NCBI GenBank assembly: GCA_002355455.1
Contig: AP017375.1
Location: forward strand, 4,331,640 to 4,395,639
Direction of reading: 5' to 3'
Length of the DNA: 64,000 nucleotides
Origin: Stanieria sp. NIES-3757
GTDB taxonomy: Bacteria > Cyanobacteriota > Cyanobacteriia > Cyanobacteriales > Xenococcaceae
Shown here piece by piece: positions 10,569 through 27,625 of the stretch (within the stretch, counting starts at the first letter, position 1; each line of letters begins with the position of its first letter). Both the position numbers and the translations under genes were made by a program. The notes beneath the pieces were generated by a model. That model saw only the letters and a program-made list of their open reading frames with translations, was not told the DNA's origin and did no database searches.

Positions 10569-11852
10569 GTGGACAAAAAACGCAGCCTGGTTTCTAGTAA
10601 ATCAAAGCCAAATCAAAGCAAAAAAACTAATCTTAAGCCAAAACAAGGCAATCAGCCTCCTGTTCGTCGCACTTCTGCTACCAGTGGTCAATACTCTTCT
10701 TCTCAGACTAAACCTCAAGCGCATCAGGCTCAACATAGTTCTCAAAAAGCTTCCTCTACGCCACAAAAACGTTTAGAAAAAAAAATTAATCGTTCTCAAA
10801 GCTTTCTTCTTCCCAAAAAGTTAACTTCTTCCTCTAAGCTACTTGTCTCTGCTGTTCGGATCGCAGTAATGGTGATCGGTATCAGTACTATTTTAGGTAC
10901 AGTTATTGCAGTTGCTAGTAATATCAATTCTTCCGTAGTTCAAGCAAATCAATCTGGTAACGAAAAACTTCAAGCTGCTACCGCAGAAAATCAAAAACAA
11001 ATAGAAAAGTTACTTCCTAACGTAGTTTTAGGAAAAGAAATAACTAGCCTCAAAAGCAAATTACAAACTTTAGCTAGTCAATATCCCAAACTTCAACCAG
11101 CTATATTTTTAGTAGATCTTGATGATAATTCTTATGTAAGTATTCAAGGGGCTGTTACTATTGCTGCTGCTAGTACAATCAAATTACCAGTTTTAGTAGC
11201 TTTTTTTCAAGATGTAGATCAAGGCAAAATTCATCTAGATGAAAAGTTAACTATGAATAAAGAGGACATTGGTAGTGGTTCTGGTGGGATGCAATATGAA
11301 AAACCTGGAACCCAATTTACTGCATTAGAAGTAGCTAGTCAAATGATCACTATTAGTGACAACACTGCAACTAATATGTTGATCAAAAGAATGGGAGGTG
11401 CTGAACAATTAAATCAGCGTTTTTTAGAATGGGGTTTGACACAAACTGTAATTCGCAATCCTTTACCTGATTTAGAAGGAACTAATACCACTAGCCCAGA
11501 AGATTTGGGTAATTTATTAATTAATCTGGAACGAGGTAAATTTGTTTCCTTAAAATCTCGCGATCGCATGTTAAAGATCATGAGCAATTTGGCGAGAAAT
11601 ACTCTACTTCCTATAGGTTTAGAAACAAATGCTACAATTGCCCATAAAACAGGAGATATTCGTTCGGTTTTAGGAGATGTAGGTATTATTGATATGCCTA
11701 ATGGTAAACGTTATGTGGCTTCGGTTTTAGTCAAACGTCCCGATAACGATCCCAAAGCTAAAGAATTTATTCAAAAAATGTCTCAAGTTGCTTATCAACA
11801 TTTGAAATGGCAACAGTCTAATCTGTTTAGTGAAGAAAAATTTACCGAATAA
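10569..11852 (+). CDS. class A beta-lactamase-fold serine hydrolase / penicillin-binding-like protein
   Basis: A 427-residue protein starting with GTG at 10569 behind an AGAGGAAG ribosome binding site. A long basic, Ser/Gln/Pro-rich cytosolic tail (1-88) precedes one membrane helix (about 91-117), then a short linker and a periplasmic serine-hydrolase domain (about 160-420). The three penicillin-binding motifs are present: S202-T-I-K205, S263-D-N, and K360-T-G. The omega-loop region (NPLPDLEGTNTTSPEDL, 297-313) keeps the TTSP part but lacks a clear ExxLN motif with the deacylating glutamate of true class A beta-lactamases. A cell-wall or non-lactamase role is therefore as likely as beta-lactam hydrolysis. 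Antibiotic resistance should not be assumed. Confidence 0.85.
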   Translation: MDKKRSLVSSKSKPNQSKKTNLKPKQGNQPPVRRTSATSGQYSSSQTKPQAHQAQHSSQKASSTPQKRLEKKINRSQSFLLPKKLTSSSKLLVSAVRIAVMVIGISTILGTVIAVASNINSSVVQANQSGNEKLQAATAENQKQIEKLLPNVVLGKEITSLKSKLQTLASQYPKLQPAIFLVDLDDNSYVSIQGAVTIAAASTIKLPVLVAFFQDVDQGKIHLDEKLTMNKEDIGSGSGGMQYEKPGTQFTALEVASQMITISDNTATNMLIKRMGGAEQLNQRFLEWGLTQTVIRNPLPDLEGTNTTSPEDLGNLLINLERGKFVSLKSRDRMLKIMSNLARNTLLPIGLETNATIAHKTGDIRSVLGDVGIIDMPNGKRYVASVLVKRPDNDPKAKEFIQKMSQVAYQHLKWQQSNLFSEEKFTE

Positions 11853-22404: not shown

Positions 22405-23667
22405 TTATGTCATCATACCGCCGAAGAAATCGATTGTATCTTTCAAAGCAACAATAAAGGCATCGATTTCAGCACGAGTGTTGTAAAAATATAAACTTGC
22501 TCTAGCACTACCAGAAGCATTGAAAAGACGATGCAATGGTTGCGTACAATGATGTCCCGAACGAATTGCTACACCTTCATGATCGAGTAAAGTTGATAAA
22601 TCACTGGCGTGAATTCCTTCAACATTAAATGCAGCTAAAGCAGCCCGATTTTTACCGTCAAGTTTTGAGGTTGCACCATAAATTTTTAGTTGAGGAATTT
22701 CTCCTAATTTTTTGAATAAATAAGTGGTTAATTCTTCTTCATAGGCATGAATTTTATCCATACCAATTGTAGTTAAATAATCTACGGCTGCTCCCAAAGC
22801 GATCGCTTCGGCAATAGCTGGTGTTCCTGCTTCAAATTTGTGGGGTAATTCTCCATAGGTTGAATAGTCAAAATAGACTTCAGAAATCATTTCGCCACCT
22901 CCTAAAAAAGGAGGCATTGCTGTTAGTATTTCTTTTTTGCCATAAAGGAAACCGATACCAGTTGGACCACACATTTTATGTCCTGAAGCTACTAACCAAT
23001 CACAATTAATTTGTTGAACATCAATAGCCATGTGAGGAACACTTTGACAAGCATCAACTAATACTTTTGCGTCGAATTGATGGGCTATTTTAATGATTTC
23101 TTCAATGGGATTGATACAACCTAAAGTATTAGAAACGTGAACAACTGCTACAAGTTTAGTTTGGTTTGACAATAAAGATTTATACTGTTCTAAGTCAAAT
23201 TCTTCTGTTTCAGTTAATTGTACATATTTAATTACTGCGCCTGTTTTCTGAGCAATAATTTGCCAAGGAACAATATTGCTATGATGCTCCATTACCGAGA
23301 GAATAATTTCATCACCGCGATTTAAATTACTTAAACCCCAACTATAGGCAACTAAATTAATTGCCTCTGAAGCATTACGAGTATAAATAATTTCTTCTCG
23401 ATGGTCAGCATTAATAAATTTGGCTACTTTATTTCTTGCTCCTTCATAACTTTCAGTTGCTCTAATACTTAAACTATGTGCGCCACGATGAACATTAGCG
23501 TTATCTTTTTTATAGTAATTGATTAACGCATTTAAAACTGCTTGGGGTTTTTGAGAAGTAGCAGCATTATCAAAATAAATTAAAGGTTTTTCGTGGATTT
23601 CTTGAGCTAAGATTGGAAAATCTTGACGGACTAAATCGGCAATAGTTTTGGTTTGAGTAAATGTCAT
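22405..23667 (-). CDS. sufS: SufS-type cysteine desulfurase (group II)
   Basis: The 420-residue PLP enzyme takes sulfur from cysteine for Fe-S cluster assembly and, with SufE, feeds the SufBCD scaffold. PLP lysine K231 sits in [11 protein letters not shown], the persulfide cysteine C374 in [11 protein letters not shown], and the PLP-contacting H129 in VMEHHSN. The RSGHHC form marks the SufS class rather than IscS. It is the last gene of a sufC-sufD-sufS set, 104 bp after sufD. ATG at 23667. Confidence 0.96.
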
Positions 23668-23771: not shown

Positions 23772-25103
23772 TTAACTACTCGTTTTATTGGCTACTAGGG
23801 TTGCTATTTTGGTAGACAAAGAGTTAAGCAAAATACGTTCAATAATTTCTGCGGTAAAACCATTAATTAATAACTGACGAGCATTATCTTCAGTTAAACC
23901 ACGACTACGAAGATAAAAGATTTCTTCTGCTTCTAATTGACTGACAGTTGCACCATGAGAACATTTAACATTATCAGCCGTAATTCTCAACTCTGGTTTA
24001 GTATCAACACGAGCTTTGGGAGATAATAACAAGTTACGATTCAACTGAGCAGCATTAGTTAATTGTGCTGCTTTGGGAACAAATACTTTACCATTAAAGA
24101 TTGTATGAGCGCGATCGCTTACTAAACATTTGTGTAACTGATCGGTAGTACCGTGAGGTTTACTTAAGGCAATAATACTATGAGTATCGGCAGTTTGTTC
24201 GCCGTTAGCTACAGTTAAACCATTGAGATAGGTTTCGGTTTGCTCTCCTTGTTGAGCAATTTCAAGATTATGACGGGATATTCTACCACCGAAGTTGAAT
24301 TCCGTTAAAGTGTAACGACTAGCACGCGCTTGGGAAACGGCTGTTTTTCCAATATGATAGGCGGTTTCTGACTCTCTTTGTAAGCGAGTATGATTAATTT
24401 GAGCATTTTCTCCTAACCAAATTTCAGTCACCGCATTAGTAAGATAAGAAGATTGCCCACTATACTCTTCAATTATATCGAGACTACAATTTTTTTCAGC
24501 AACAATCCAGCTTCTTGGTTGGGAAAAACTAACAGAGTCTTCTGCGACAGAAATAAACAACAAATGAATTGGTTGTTCAACTAAGGTGTTTGGTGCAGCC
24601 CAAATAATTGCCACATCAGCAATACTAGCGGTGTTTAAAGAGGTAAAAACTTCTTCTGCACCTGATTGAGTTCCCAAATAGGGACGGAAATATTTACAAT
24701 AAGCTTCTGGTATATTAGTTAGATTCCCAACATAAATACCTTTCGGCAAACCTGAAGTATTTGATAACTCAGGGGCATAAAACCCGTTGACAAAAACAAG
24801 TCGACTTTCAGCAGCTTCAGGAATCGAATCAATTGTGTTGAACTCAACAGTACTAAATTTAGCAGCAGTAAAATCTAAATCAAGTAGAAGTGATAAATCT
24901 GTAAATCGCCATTCTTCATCTTTTTTACTAGGAAATTTCAACCTAGATACCCAAGATGCAGATTGTTCTCTTAAATTTTCTAACCAAACGGAAGTTTCTG
25001 AATCTAGTTGTTCGTGGGGAACAGGAGGACGTTGTTGTAATATTTTAAGTAAAAAAGGAGCGCTCTTAATTTCTCTAGAAGTCACTGCTGGTGATTGACT
25101 CAT
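23772..25103 (-). CDS. sufD: Fe-S cluster assembly protein SufD
   Basis: The 443-residue SufD partners SufB and SufC in the SufBC2D scaffold complex. The right-handed beta-helix core is seen in the C-terminal half (about 210-400), with the conserved SHGATVSQLEAEEIFYLRSRGLTEDNARQLLINGF region near the end. SufD normally lacks the SufB catalytic cysteine. Its ATG overlaps the sufC stop by one base (TAATG), a sign of translational coupling. No sufB gene is present upstream. Confidence 0.95.
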   Translation of the reverse strand: MSQSPAVTSREIKSAPFLLKILQQRPPVPHEQLDSETSVWLENLREQSASWVSRLKFPSKKDEEWRFTDLSLLLDLDFTAAKFSTVEFNTIDSIPEAAESRLVFVNGFYAPELSNTSGLPKGIYVGNLTNIPEAYCKYFRPYLGTQSGAEEVFTSLNTASIADVAIIWAAPNTLVEQPIHLLFISVAEDSVSFSQPRSWIVAEKNCSLDIIEEYSGQSSYLTNAVTEIWLGENAQINHTRLQRESETAYHIGKTAVSQARASRYTLTEFNFGGRISRHNLEIAQQGEQTETYLNGLTVANGEQTADTHSIIALSKPHGTTDQLHKCLVSDRAHTIFNGKVFVPKAAQLTNAAQLNRNLLLSPKARVDTKPELRITADNVKCSHGATVSQLEAEEIFYLRSRGLTEDNARQLLINGFTAEIIERILLNSLSTKIATLVANKTSS

Positions 25104-25879
25104 TATGCACCTACCTCCGCCACAGCTTTGTCATCGAGGAAGTCATAACCACGAGATTCTAATTCTAAAGCTAATTCCTTACCACCACTAGTAACAATTT
25201 GTCCATTTTGCATCACATGAACAAAATCTGGTTCGATGTAATTAAGCAACCGTTGATAGTGAGTAATGACAAGGTAACCTTTGTCAGGAGTTTTCAGTTG
25301 ATTGACACCTTCAGCTACAATTTTTAAGGCATCAATATCTAAACCAGAATCAATTTCATCCAAAATAGTTAAAGTAGGATCGAGTAAAGCCATTTGAAGA
25401 ATTTCGTTACGCTTTTTCTCTCCACCAGAAAAACCTTCGTTGAGACTTCTTTCTAAAAAGCTGGATTTCATTTTGACAATTGCCAACTTTTCCTCTATCA
25501 AGTCTTCAAAATCAAAAGTATCGATTTCTTCCAAACCTTCATGCTTCCGCTTGGCATTGTAAGCAACTCGCAGAAAATCTAAATTACTAACCCCAGGAAT
25601 TTCTAAAGGATACTGAAAAGCCAAAAAAATACCATTTAAAGCTCTTTCATTAGGCTCTTGCTCTAAAATATTTTCACCTTTGTAAATAATTTCACCACCA
25701 GTTACCTCATAATCGGGATGACCAGCAATAATTTTAGATAGGGTGCTTTTACCTGAACCATTGCGCCCCATAATGGCATGAACTTCTCCTGCCTTAATTT
25801 CTAAATTGACACCTTTAAGAATCGGCGTGCCGTCTACACTAGCAGTGAGATTATGTATTGATAAAATAGTTTCGCTCAT
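25103..25879 (-). CDS. sufC: Fe-S cluster assembly ATPase SufC
   Basis: The 258-residue ABC-type ATPase drives the SufBC2D complex. Walker [10 protein letters not shown] is at about 38-46, the Q-loop in [10 protein letters not shown], the SufC signature [10 protein letters not shown] near 148-157, Walker [13 protein letters not shown] near 170-181, and the H-loop ITHYQRLL near 206. It is the first gene of the cluster, although in most cyanobacteria sufB comes first (sufBCDS). ATG at 25879; the 885-bp upstream region contains two SufR-like operators. Confidence 0.96.
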
Positions 25880-25988
25880 TGTCAGGTTTGTTCTCTCTCA
25901 AGTAAATCTATAGTGTTCGATTCTGCTACAAAATAGCTGTGACAAAGAAGCGCAAGTTCTAGATGATGATTAGATGGCGCGCTTTGAG

Positions 25989-25994
25989 ATTATA
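25989..25994 (-). promoter_or_regulatory. candidate -10 box of the sufCDS promoter
   Basis: Perfect TATAAT on the minus strand, about 110 bp upstream of sufC. The adjacent SufR-like operator ends two bases before it, so bound repressor would cover the promoter. The -35 region is poorly matched. Confidence 0.45.
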
Positions 25995-25995
25995 G

Positions 25996-26019
25996 TTAAA
26001 CAACATTTTTGTTGTTTAA
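25996..26019 (-). promoter_or_regulatory. SufR-like operator, proximal site
   Basis: CAAC-N6-GTTG (26001-26014) in a longer perfect inverted repeat with nine-base arms (TTAAACAAC / GTTGTTTAA). CAAC-N6-GTTG is the published recognition pattern of SufR, the Fe-S cluster-sensing repressor of the cyanobacterial suf genes. It abuts the candidate TATAAT box. Confidence 0.75.
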
Positions 26020-26039
26020 ATCCATTGTAGGATACATTA

Positions 26040-26055
26040 ACAACAAAGATGTTGT
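26040..26055 (-). promoter_or_regulatory. SufR-like operator, distal site
   Basis: A second CAAC-N6-GTTG (26041-26054) with five-base arms, centred exactly 40 bp from the proximal site, about four helical turns. Two such sites also occur in the Synechocystis sufR-sufB intergenic region. Confidence 0.72.
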
Positions 26056-26415
26056 CAAAGTCGGTTTTAATTTGTTTTGATTGGCTTCATCGTTTGAGGG
26101 CAGCAAAACACGCTCGCTGTCGGTAAAGCGACACCAACTCTAATGACAGGAGTATAAATAAACTTTTGTTAAGTTAAGCAACTACTCAAGAATTTTTCAA
26201 GTTATTTCTATTGTTATTGTTTTGAGATTAGTAATTTGGCAGTTAAAACTCAAAAATTTTTTATAGTCCCCTAAGAGCTAATTAAGTTAAACAAATAAAT
26301 TAATAATTTGATAGAGCATTTTTGTCGAGCAAATTTTCAGCTTTTTTATTATTTGTCTCTAATTAAGATTAGATTTTTTAGCAAAATCTTTTAGATAAAA
26401 CTATTAAATTTTTGG

Positions 26416-26761
26416 TTGATATTGTTGCTGGTTGGGCTATTTTCAGAAAGTGAAAGCACAATACTAAATAAAATTAAAAAAAATTATCCTGAAACAACTC
26501 ACGCGATCGCCTGTTTCAGTTACAAGTTAGGAGATGAATTTGATCGCATCATAATCTTATTCAGCTTTCAAATTAAAGCAAATGATTTGAAATCTGAATC
26601 TAATTGCGGGAAAACTATCTCAATACTTAGCTACCGCAATGAACAATTGTCAGCTTCAAAGTACAAAATTCTTATTAACAGCAAATTCTCATCAATTTTG
26701 GCAAGATTTAGCTAAACTTAAACTTTCAGAAATTAATCCTTCAGCAAGTTTGTTTGATTAG
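26416..26761 (+). pseudogene. possible remnant of a coding sequence
   Basis: Two consecutive plus-strand frames look protein-like without forming a gene: 26416-26715 (TTG start, no ribosome binding site; includes ILNKIKKNYPETTHAIACF) and, in another frame, 26591-26761 ending in LSEINPSASLFD and TAG. The shift from one frame to the other suggests a decayed gene. I do not recognise the family. The rest of the 885-bp gap (25880-26764) holds only the suf control region and AT-rich sequence. Confidence 0.2.
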
Positions 26762-26764
26762 CAA

Positions 26765-27625
26765 TTAACGCACAATAATAACTGATTTGATTGGTCGTTG
26801 AATTGAATTACCTTCTGAATCTAATCTACCGTAAAAAGTTTTGCCATCATAATAAAGAGATGCCGAACTTCCCCCATCCAAATTAATAGCTTTTTCCACA
26901 CCAAGGGTAGCTAAAAAATCAGCTAATTGTTCTAAAGACATTCCAGAGTTACTAGGAGATTGTGGTTTTTGTGCCACCATTGCTAAAATAATATCTCCCT
27001 TAGCAGTAATACCGATCGCACTTCTAGCATTAGGTTGAGTAGTACCGATCGCATCACGAATTTTTTCTCCAGCTTGATAATCGGTAAATCCTTCTTCAAG
27101 TGCCGTATTTTGAGGTAGAATTTGGGGTCCTCCACCAATAGCATCAACTAAAATACAACCGCTAGGAGTGGCATTGTTATGAAAAGTTATATCATAACGA
27201 AATTGATGAGAACAAATGTAGCGACGAAATTCAGTTCGATTTAAAATTTTGTCAAGATAAGGTTGCAAGTCGGGATTTTCAATTAATCTTTCATTAGTGC
27301 GAGGATCGGCGACTAGTTTGCCTTTGCGAGTGATATAAGAAGTCGTTTTTTGATTTTTCGGATCGAAATAACCACCATTAATTACGGCGATCGCTTTATG
27401 TTGAGTGGCGAAGGTTTCAATTGATTGAAGTTCGGGCGCAACTTCTGGATAAACTTTAAAAGTACTACCATAAGGAATGGTGATAGTATGAACGATACTA
27501 TTACCTTGTTCGCTAATATCGAAGCGTAGTTTTGAAAACGAATTATTAATAGCTTGAGAATAAGAACTAGAAGCTAATAGGAATCCTAAACTAATTCCAA
27601 TCAAATAAACAAATTTTTTGTTCAC
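26765..27625 (-). CDS. phosphodiester glycosidase family (NAGPA/DUF2233) secreted protein
   Basis: The 286-residue protein has a signal peptide (MNKKFVYLIGISLGFLLASS, cleavage near 25) and a NAGPA-like domain (about 75-285). Family landmarks are INGGYFDPKNQ, the ARSAIGI segment, and LDGGSSASLYYDG near the C-terminus; these residues shape the active site of the mammalian uncovering enzyme. The physiological substrate in cyanobacteria is unknown; a periplasmic or surface glycan-modifying role is plausible. ATG at 27625. Divergently transcribed from the hydrolase-like gene 65 bp away. Confidence 0.88.
   Translation of the reverse strand: MNKKFVYLIGISLGFLLASSSYSQAINNSFSKLRFDISEQGNSIVHTITIPYGSTFKVYPEVAPELQSIETFATQHKAIAVINGGYFDPKNQKTTSYITRKGKLVADPRTNERLIENPDLQPYLDKILNRTEFRRYICSHQFRYDITFHNNATPSGCILVDAIGGGPQILPQNTALEEGFTDYQAGEKIRDAIGTTQPNARSAIGITAKGDIILAMVAQKPQSPSNSGMSLEQLADFLATLGVEKAINLDGGSSASLYYDGKTFYGRLDSEGNSIQRPIKSVIIVR

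Follow-up and report, generated by a model that had tools for sequence, protein, structure and literature searches.

The sufCDS locus and its upstream region

The window, by which we mean the whole stretch of 64,000 nucleotides that was analysed (C1:4331640-4395639 of a 5.46-Mb, two-contig genome), carries sufC, sufD and sufS, identified by scores above the respective NCBIfam cut-offs (Table 1). The organism is probably a Stanieria or close to that genus, as 20 kb of the second contig match a plasmid of Stanieria cyanosphaera PCC 7437 at 97.7% over 87%, in a search that may have excluded the genome's own records. Two features usually expected beside these genes, sufB and sufR, are not adjacent, as the initial annotation had observed. 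A sufB or sufR relic upstream of sufC (25880-26764) was considered and rejected, as the tblastn matches in this region were too weak (best E-values of 0.82 for sufR and 2.5 for sufB), and the next open reading frame beyond it (26765-27625) gave no NCBIfam match at 1e-10.

Table 1. Features of the sufCDS locus in window coordinates. O1 and O2, predicted operators; f1, the family of the window's genome.
Feature	Position	Strand	Basis and remarks
sufS	22405..23667	-	TIGR01979, 614.9 bits (cut-off 475.1)
sufD	23772..25103	-	TIGR01981, 290.1 bits (cut-off 222); start shares one base with the sufC stop
sufC	25103..25879	-	TIGR01978, 362.2 bits (cut-off 212.8)
TATAAT, touching O2	25989..25994	-	scan; TACAAA in the congener G001
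Operator-promoter cassette of sufCDS	25991..26063	-	ungapped local alignment to the second copy, L017 6772-6844, between sufB and sufR
O2, proximal SufR-type operator (predicted)	26001..26014		CAACATTTTTGTTG; exact CAAC-N6-GTTG
Putative -10, TATCCT	26029..26034	-	consensus scan
O1, distal SufR-type operator (predicted)	26041..26054		CAACAAAGATGTTG; exact CAAC-N6-GTTG; shares two bases with the end of the -35 and takes up most of the spacer to the -10
Putative -35, TTGACA	26053..26058	-	consensus scan; conserved in the remaining f1 sufC rows wherever this position can be seen

Upstream of sufC lie two exact palindromes with centres 40 bp apart, O1 and O2, the latter extended to nine-base arms (TTAAACAAC/GTTGTTTAA, 25996-26019). 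The pair, its spacing and the long arms are as first annotated; the sites had been placed 120-165 bp upstream of sufC, and they are indeed upstream, but on the gene strand O2 and O1 begin at -135 and -175 relative to the sufC ATG. A lone CAACN6GTTG is weak evidence: the genome holds 108 single matches compared with 88 for the reversed control pattern, and a longer-arm pattern, with which we sought further SufR targets, occurs at 13 places in the genome compared with 12 for its control. The window itself contains three matches, whereas shuffled sequence averages 0.66 and reaches three in 2 of 100 shuffles; the third exact match (11368-11381, CAACTAATATGTTG) is remote from every suf gene. These near-background counts of single sites are what would be expected of chance palindromes in AT-rich DNA, an explanation to which we nevertheless assign a negligible probability given the spacing of the pair, its second copy beside sufR and its conservation in the family, both described below. 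While site pairs at 40-bp centre spacing with up to two mismatches occur three times in the genome (control, two), at up to one mismatch only two places in the genome remain, one before sufC and the other between sufB and sufR.

A consensus promoter scan places TTGACA-N18-TATCCT at 26058-26029. By itself the scan proves nothing, since four promoter-like sites were found against 2.8 (sd 1.7) in shuffled sequences. We nevertheless favour this promoter, as TTGACA before sufC is conserved even where O1 has decayed, in seven rows of genus g8 (G008, G013, G017, G019, G020, G022 and G023); counting against the promoter reading, TTAAACA stands in place of TTGACA in the sufB cassettes of g8. The TATAAT reported earlier as touching the proximal site is present, but is probably not the functional element, since the congener G001 has TACAAA in its place.

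sufB and sufR at a second locus

The genome encodes a single sufB (C1:962261-963637, minus strand), the only other match of the sufB model being sufD, and a single sufR above cut-off (C1:963928-964533, plus strand; TIGR02702, 329.7 bits, cut-off 178.8). The two genes are divergent and form a joint locus at C1:962261-964533, while sufCDS lies at about 4354000-4357500 of the same contig, a distance of 3.4 Mb in contig coordinates; were the 5.32-Mb contig circular, the shorter way round would be 1.9 Mb. The matches to sufB and sufC contain no internal stops; sufB, sufC and sufD are all present and open. The encoded SufR has the cysteine spacing C-X12-C-X13-C-X14-C, given as the SufR cysteine motif in the accessible part of PMC8593673.

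Between sufB and sufR lies a second copy of the sufCDS operator-promoter cassette, identical at 66 of 73 bases (90%) without gaps. The 14 bases of O1 recur there at C1:963821-963834, and of the two sites in this copy one is exact and one has a single mismatch, compared with two exact sites at sufC. sufB has therefore not been lost: the suf genes of this genome do not form a contiguous sufBCDS operon with a divergent sufR, the operon is split, and its operator-promoter cassette is now twofold. The initial annotation proposed that sufB had been moved or deleted while the control region was kept, and correctly expected sufB, here found facing sufR, to be encoded elsewhere. The split stands, but the deletion does not, and since the divergent sufR-sufB arrangement is kept and the control region exists in two copies, it is sufCDS that appears to have moved. 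Separate regulation of sufB, which had also been suggested, is improbable judging from the sequence, as CAAC-N6-GTTG is present upstream of sufB within the same cassette. Nor does the genome hold a second sufC cotranscribed with the distant sufB, as only one sufC exceeds the cut-off in the whole genome, or lack a SufR.

The link between this motif and SufR is drawn from reviews of other species, and a regulator other than SufR might read these palindromes. We give this only a very slight chance, as the second copy occupies the interval from sufR to sufB, where SufR operators are located in the accessible parts of PMC4755962 and PMC13421787, and of 46 genomes tested all but one have sufR above the cut-off, G005, the one without, lacking sufB too.

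The split is shared by almost the whole family

We scanned 27 genomes of f1 with the sufB model, which also detects sufD. In 24 of these sufB and sufD are on different contigs or far apart, so that, as a comparison with related genomes makes clear, the split is not peculiar to one genome. Many of the genomes are drafts, in which different contigs alone are not proof of a split; the proof comes from five genomes (G000, G001, G013, G015 and G020) in which a single contig carries both genes, at distances of 58 kb to 3.4 Mb. In the other split genomes no sufB was seen beside sufC in the stretches covered, some of which begin within 0.3 kb of sufC. Two genomes were counted as neither split nor linked, G010, without sufD, and G005, in which neither sufB nor sufR exceeds its cut-off. 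The largest groups of shared neighbours around sufCDS join four genomes of the family; with no more than a few kb of flank covered, these neighbours are uninformative for dating the move.

The one linked genome is G002, in which sufB and sufC are separated by a gap of roughly 620 bp with no site before sufC. The gap (L128 4969-5588) contains frameshifted reading frames, which we take to resemble DUF29 proteins. Placement of G002 as the first branch of the family (p-AU 0.379) and as sister to one half of it (p-AU 0.207) were both compatible with the 21-row set, while the best tree groups it with the other half of f1 with weak support (62/35). If G002 does lie inside f1, the split happened twice or was reversed once.

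Operators are retained on both sides of the split. In sufB regions (n = 25, excluding G005 and G012, whose contig ends inside sufB) a site with at most one mismatch is found in all 25, an exact site in 19 and two sites in 24. It could be argued that the sufC copy is a relic, that is, a working promoter no longer under SufR, with sufCDS expressed independently of sufB: decay of the distal sufC site is frequent in g8, and sufC in two other split families, f28 and f29, manages without an exact site (0/6, see below). However, all 25 sufC units of f1 (without G002 and G010) keep at least one site at no more than one mismatch, 22 of them exactly and 16 with two sites, and wherever the distal site has decayed in g8 rows, the proximal one is retained. 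We consider loss of SufR control at sufC in f1 unlikely, if the least improbable of the alternatives weighed here. In G023, a member of g8 whose sufC keeps an exact proximal site, the match to sufR falls into two pieces that overlap, one of them containing a stop (L172 2703-3337), representing either a draft error or a broken repressor.

Age and type of the duplicated cassette

The sufB and sufC cassettes of f1 have in common not only their operators but also the 26-bp spacer between them, with a mean identity of 0.84 between loci compared with 0.93 within the sufB and 0.87 within the sufC cassettes. The shuffles set beside cassette and site counts across loci preserve base composition only, not dinucleotides. 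Base 9 of the spacer separates the two types: all 21 sufB cassettes counted have A there, and all 21 sufC cassettes have T (12) or G (9). Two of 23 cassettes per side, with more than four mismatches in the paired half-sites, are omitted from this count. This pattern indicates one old duplication, and by the same base the window's cassette is of the sufC type and not a fresh copy of the genome's own sufB cassette. In G006 and G011 (L155 and L160) the sufB cassette starts only 71 bp before the sufB start, compared with 127-210 bp in the other f1 rows.

A fresh origin of the sufC sites following the split, instead of copying of the sufB cassette, is highly improbable, its chance being hardly greater than that given above to another regulator. 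In two further cases of splitting described below (f14 and G127) the resemblance to the sufB region is indeed confined to single sites and short flanks, as expected of independent origin. For f1 such an origin is unlikely, as the spacer is shared as well and the match spans 73 bp in the window's genome; in any case it would bear on how the sites arose, not on what they do.

Linked loci and other splits in the phylum

We compared 56 control loci in which sufC is still beside sufB, 26 from genomes with G handles and 30 named cyanobacterial loci (L018-L047, the first 30 of 80 loci). No exact site lies within 300 bp of sufC in any of them (0/26 and 0/30), and a site with at most one mismatch is found in six (5/26 and 1/30). 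In 32 of the 56, read from the site listings, an exact site lies within 400 bp of sufB; the remaining 24, which include the types of Synechococcus and Prochlorococcus, have little value as controls. Among linked genomes of the window's order, an exact site accompanies sufB in 11 of 17, and 14 of 17 have one with up to one mismatch. For linked sufD the counts are 0/24 exact and 2/24 with up to one mismatch. One of the named control loci, from a Snowella MAG, encodes SufB as a single 841-residue open reading frame (L019 2723-5248) with an in-frame insert of more than 300 residues, beginning CHPAGEQVLTRHGW and ending VHN just ahead of CTAPMYDSNQ, which is presumably an intein.

A phylum-wide sample of 291 genomes gave matches in 155. 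Among the matches listed, which provide examples and not a frequency, splits are also found in families f14, f28 and f29 and in one genome of f8 (G127); three genomes with sufB or sufC near a contig end (G025 and G223 of f2, and G301 of f33) were counted as neither split nor linked. On a tree of SufB, SufC, SufD and SufR, the split or linked label requires five changes over 83 counted rows of 88, this being a quick tree with a long-branch warning at f28.

In f14, which belongs to the window's order (G037, G131, G141, G166, G172 and G207), sufR, sufB, sufC(D) and sufS are all apart, and an exact site is found at sufC, at the lone sufB and at the lone sufR in six of six genomes each, with two sites at up to one mismatch in only one of these 18 units. 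In G127 it is sufD that has been separated from sufC, and this released sufD has an exact site at -132. Released units in the window's order thus carry an exact site in f14 (6/6) and G127 (1/1), but the rule that a released gene takes an operator with it fails outside that order. The split sufC of f28 (two genomes) and f29 (four), from other orders, has no exact site (0/6; G299 has one with a single mismatch), while in all six sufB, still next to sufR, keeps one or more exact sites and two sites at up to one mismatch (L192-L197 and L204-L209). The lone sufS of f14 and f29 likewise has no exact site (0/10), G037 having one with a single mismatch.

A model for control of the split operon

In the accessible parts of PMC13421787 and PMC7058544, holo-SufR is described as binding CAAC-N6-GTTG and repressing sufBCDS and sufR, with release upon reduction or loss of its cluster. 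Our preferred explanation, which we hold to be likely, is that splitting and cassette duplication have left the suf operon as two units under this one regulator. The ancestral order would have been a sufR divergent from sufBCDS, with a single two-operator control region between them; in f1 sufCDS would then have moved off and the cassette been duplicated, one copy remaining between sufR and sufB and the other standing before sufC. Holo-SufR, carrying [4Fe-4S], would block RNA polymerase by binding to O1, which lies within the sufC promoter, and to O2, shortly after the -10; O2 would lie just past the transcription start if the TTGACA-N18-TATCCT promoter is right. Judged from the two cassettes, SufR most likely represses the sufB and sufCDS units in trans, and the halves are probably still switchable together, as loss or reduction of the SufR cluster would release both despite the megabase distance between them.

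The persistence of two sites beside sufR, and the frequent loss of one elsewhere, led us to infer from the counts that each operator can serve one divergent promoter. Extending this, we suggest tentatively, and with doubt slightly outweighing belief, that selection protects co-control and not contiguity. The suf genes would have come apart at least three times in the window's order (f1, f14 and G127), each time with the released unit carrying a SufR-type operator; the paired operators at 40-bp spacing would serve two divergent promoters, so that units no longer facing sufR need only one and the other decays, and f28 and f29 would represent cases in which sufC escaped SufR. If that escape is real, unequal induction of SufB and SufC is predicted in those families.

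Almost throughout the family, the subunits of one complex, SufBC2D, are encoded at loci that lie far from each other and carry copied control elements. Lineages that are intact, split with an operator and split without one provide a natural comparison with which to ask whether operons are kept for co-regulation or for contiguity, and the same comparison of intact and split lineages bears on the role of each of the two SufR operators.

Comparison with known suf systems

Cyanobacterial suf genes are described as a contiguous sufBCDS with a divergent sufR in the accessible parts of PMC7058544, PMC4755962 and PMC13421787. In our literature search, most subscription papers lying outside it, neither titles nor abstracts dealt with a suf operon that is split and has its SufR control duplicated. 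The parts are known from the SufR regulon; what is informative is the split, together with the copying of the cassette and the recurrence of such cases. The nearest known system is that of Synechocystis sp. PCC 6803 (sll0088, slr0074-slr0077), which, as far as the accessible text of the same three sources describes it, has the same genes, operator type and divergent sufR. There, sufBCDS is one contiguous unit, whereas in the window's genome sufB with sufR and sufCDS are apart, with a cassette copy each. f14 resembles the window's genome in having an exact site at both sufB and sufC(D), with a further one at sufR, but differs from f1 in that its split is separate on the tree, the pieces are more numerous and mostly carry one site each, and the lone sufS has no exact site. 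In f28 and f29, as in f1, sufB stays with sufR and sufC is elsewhere, but unlike in f1 this sufC lacks an exact site.
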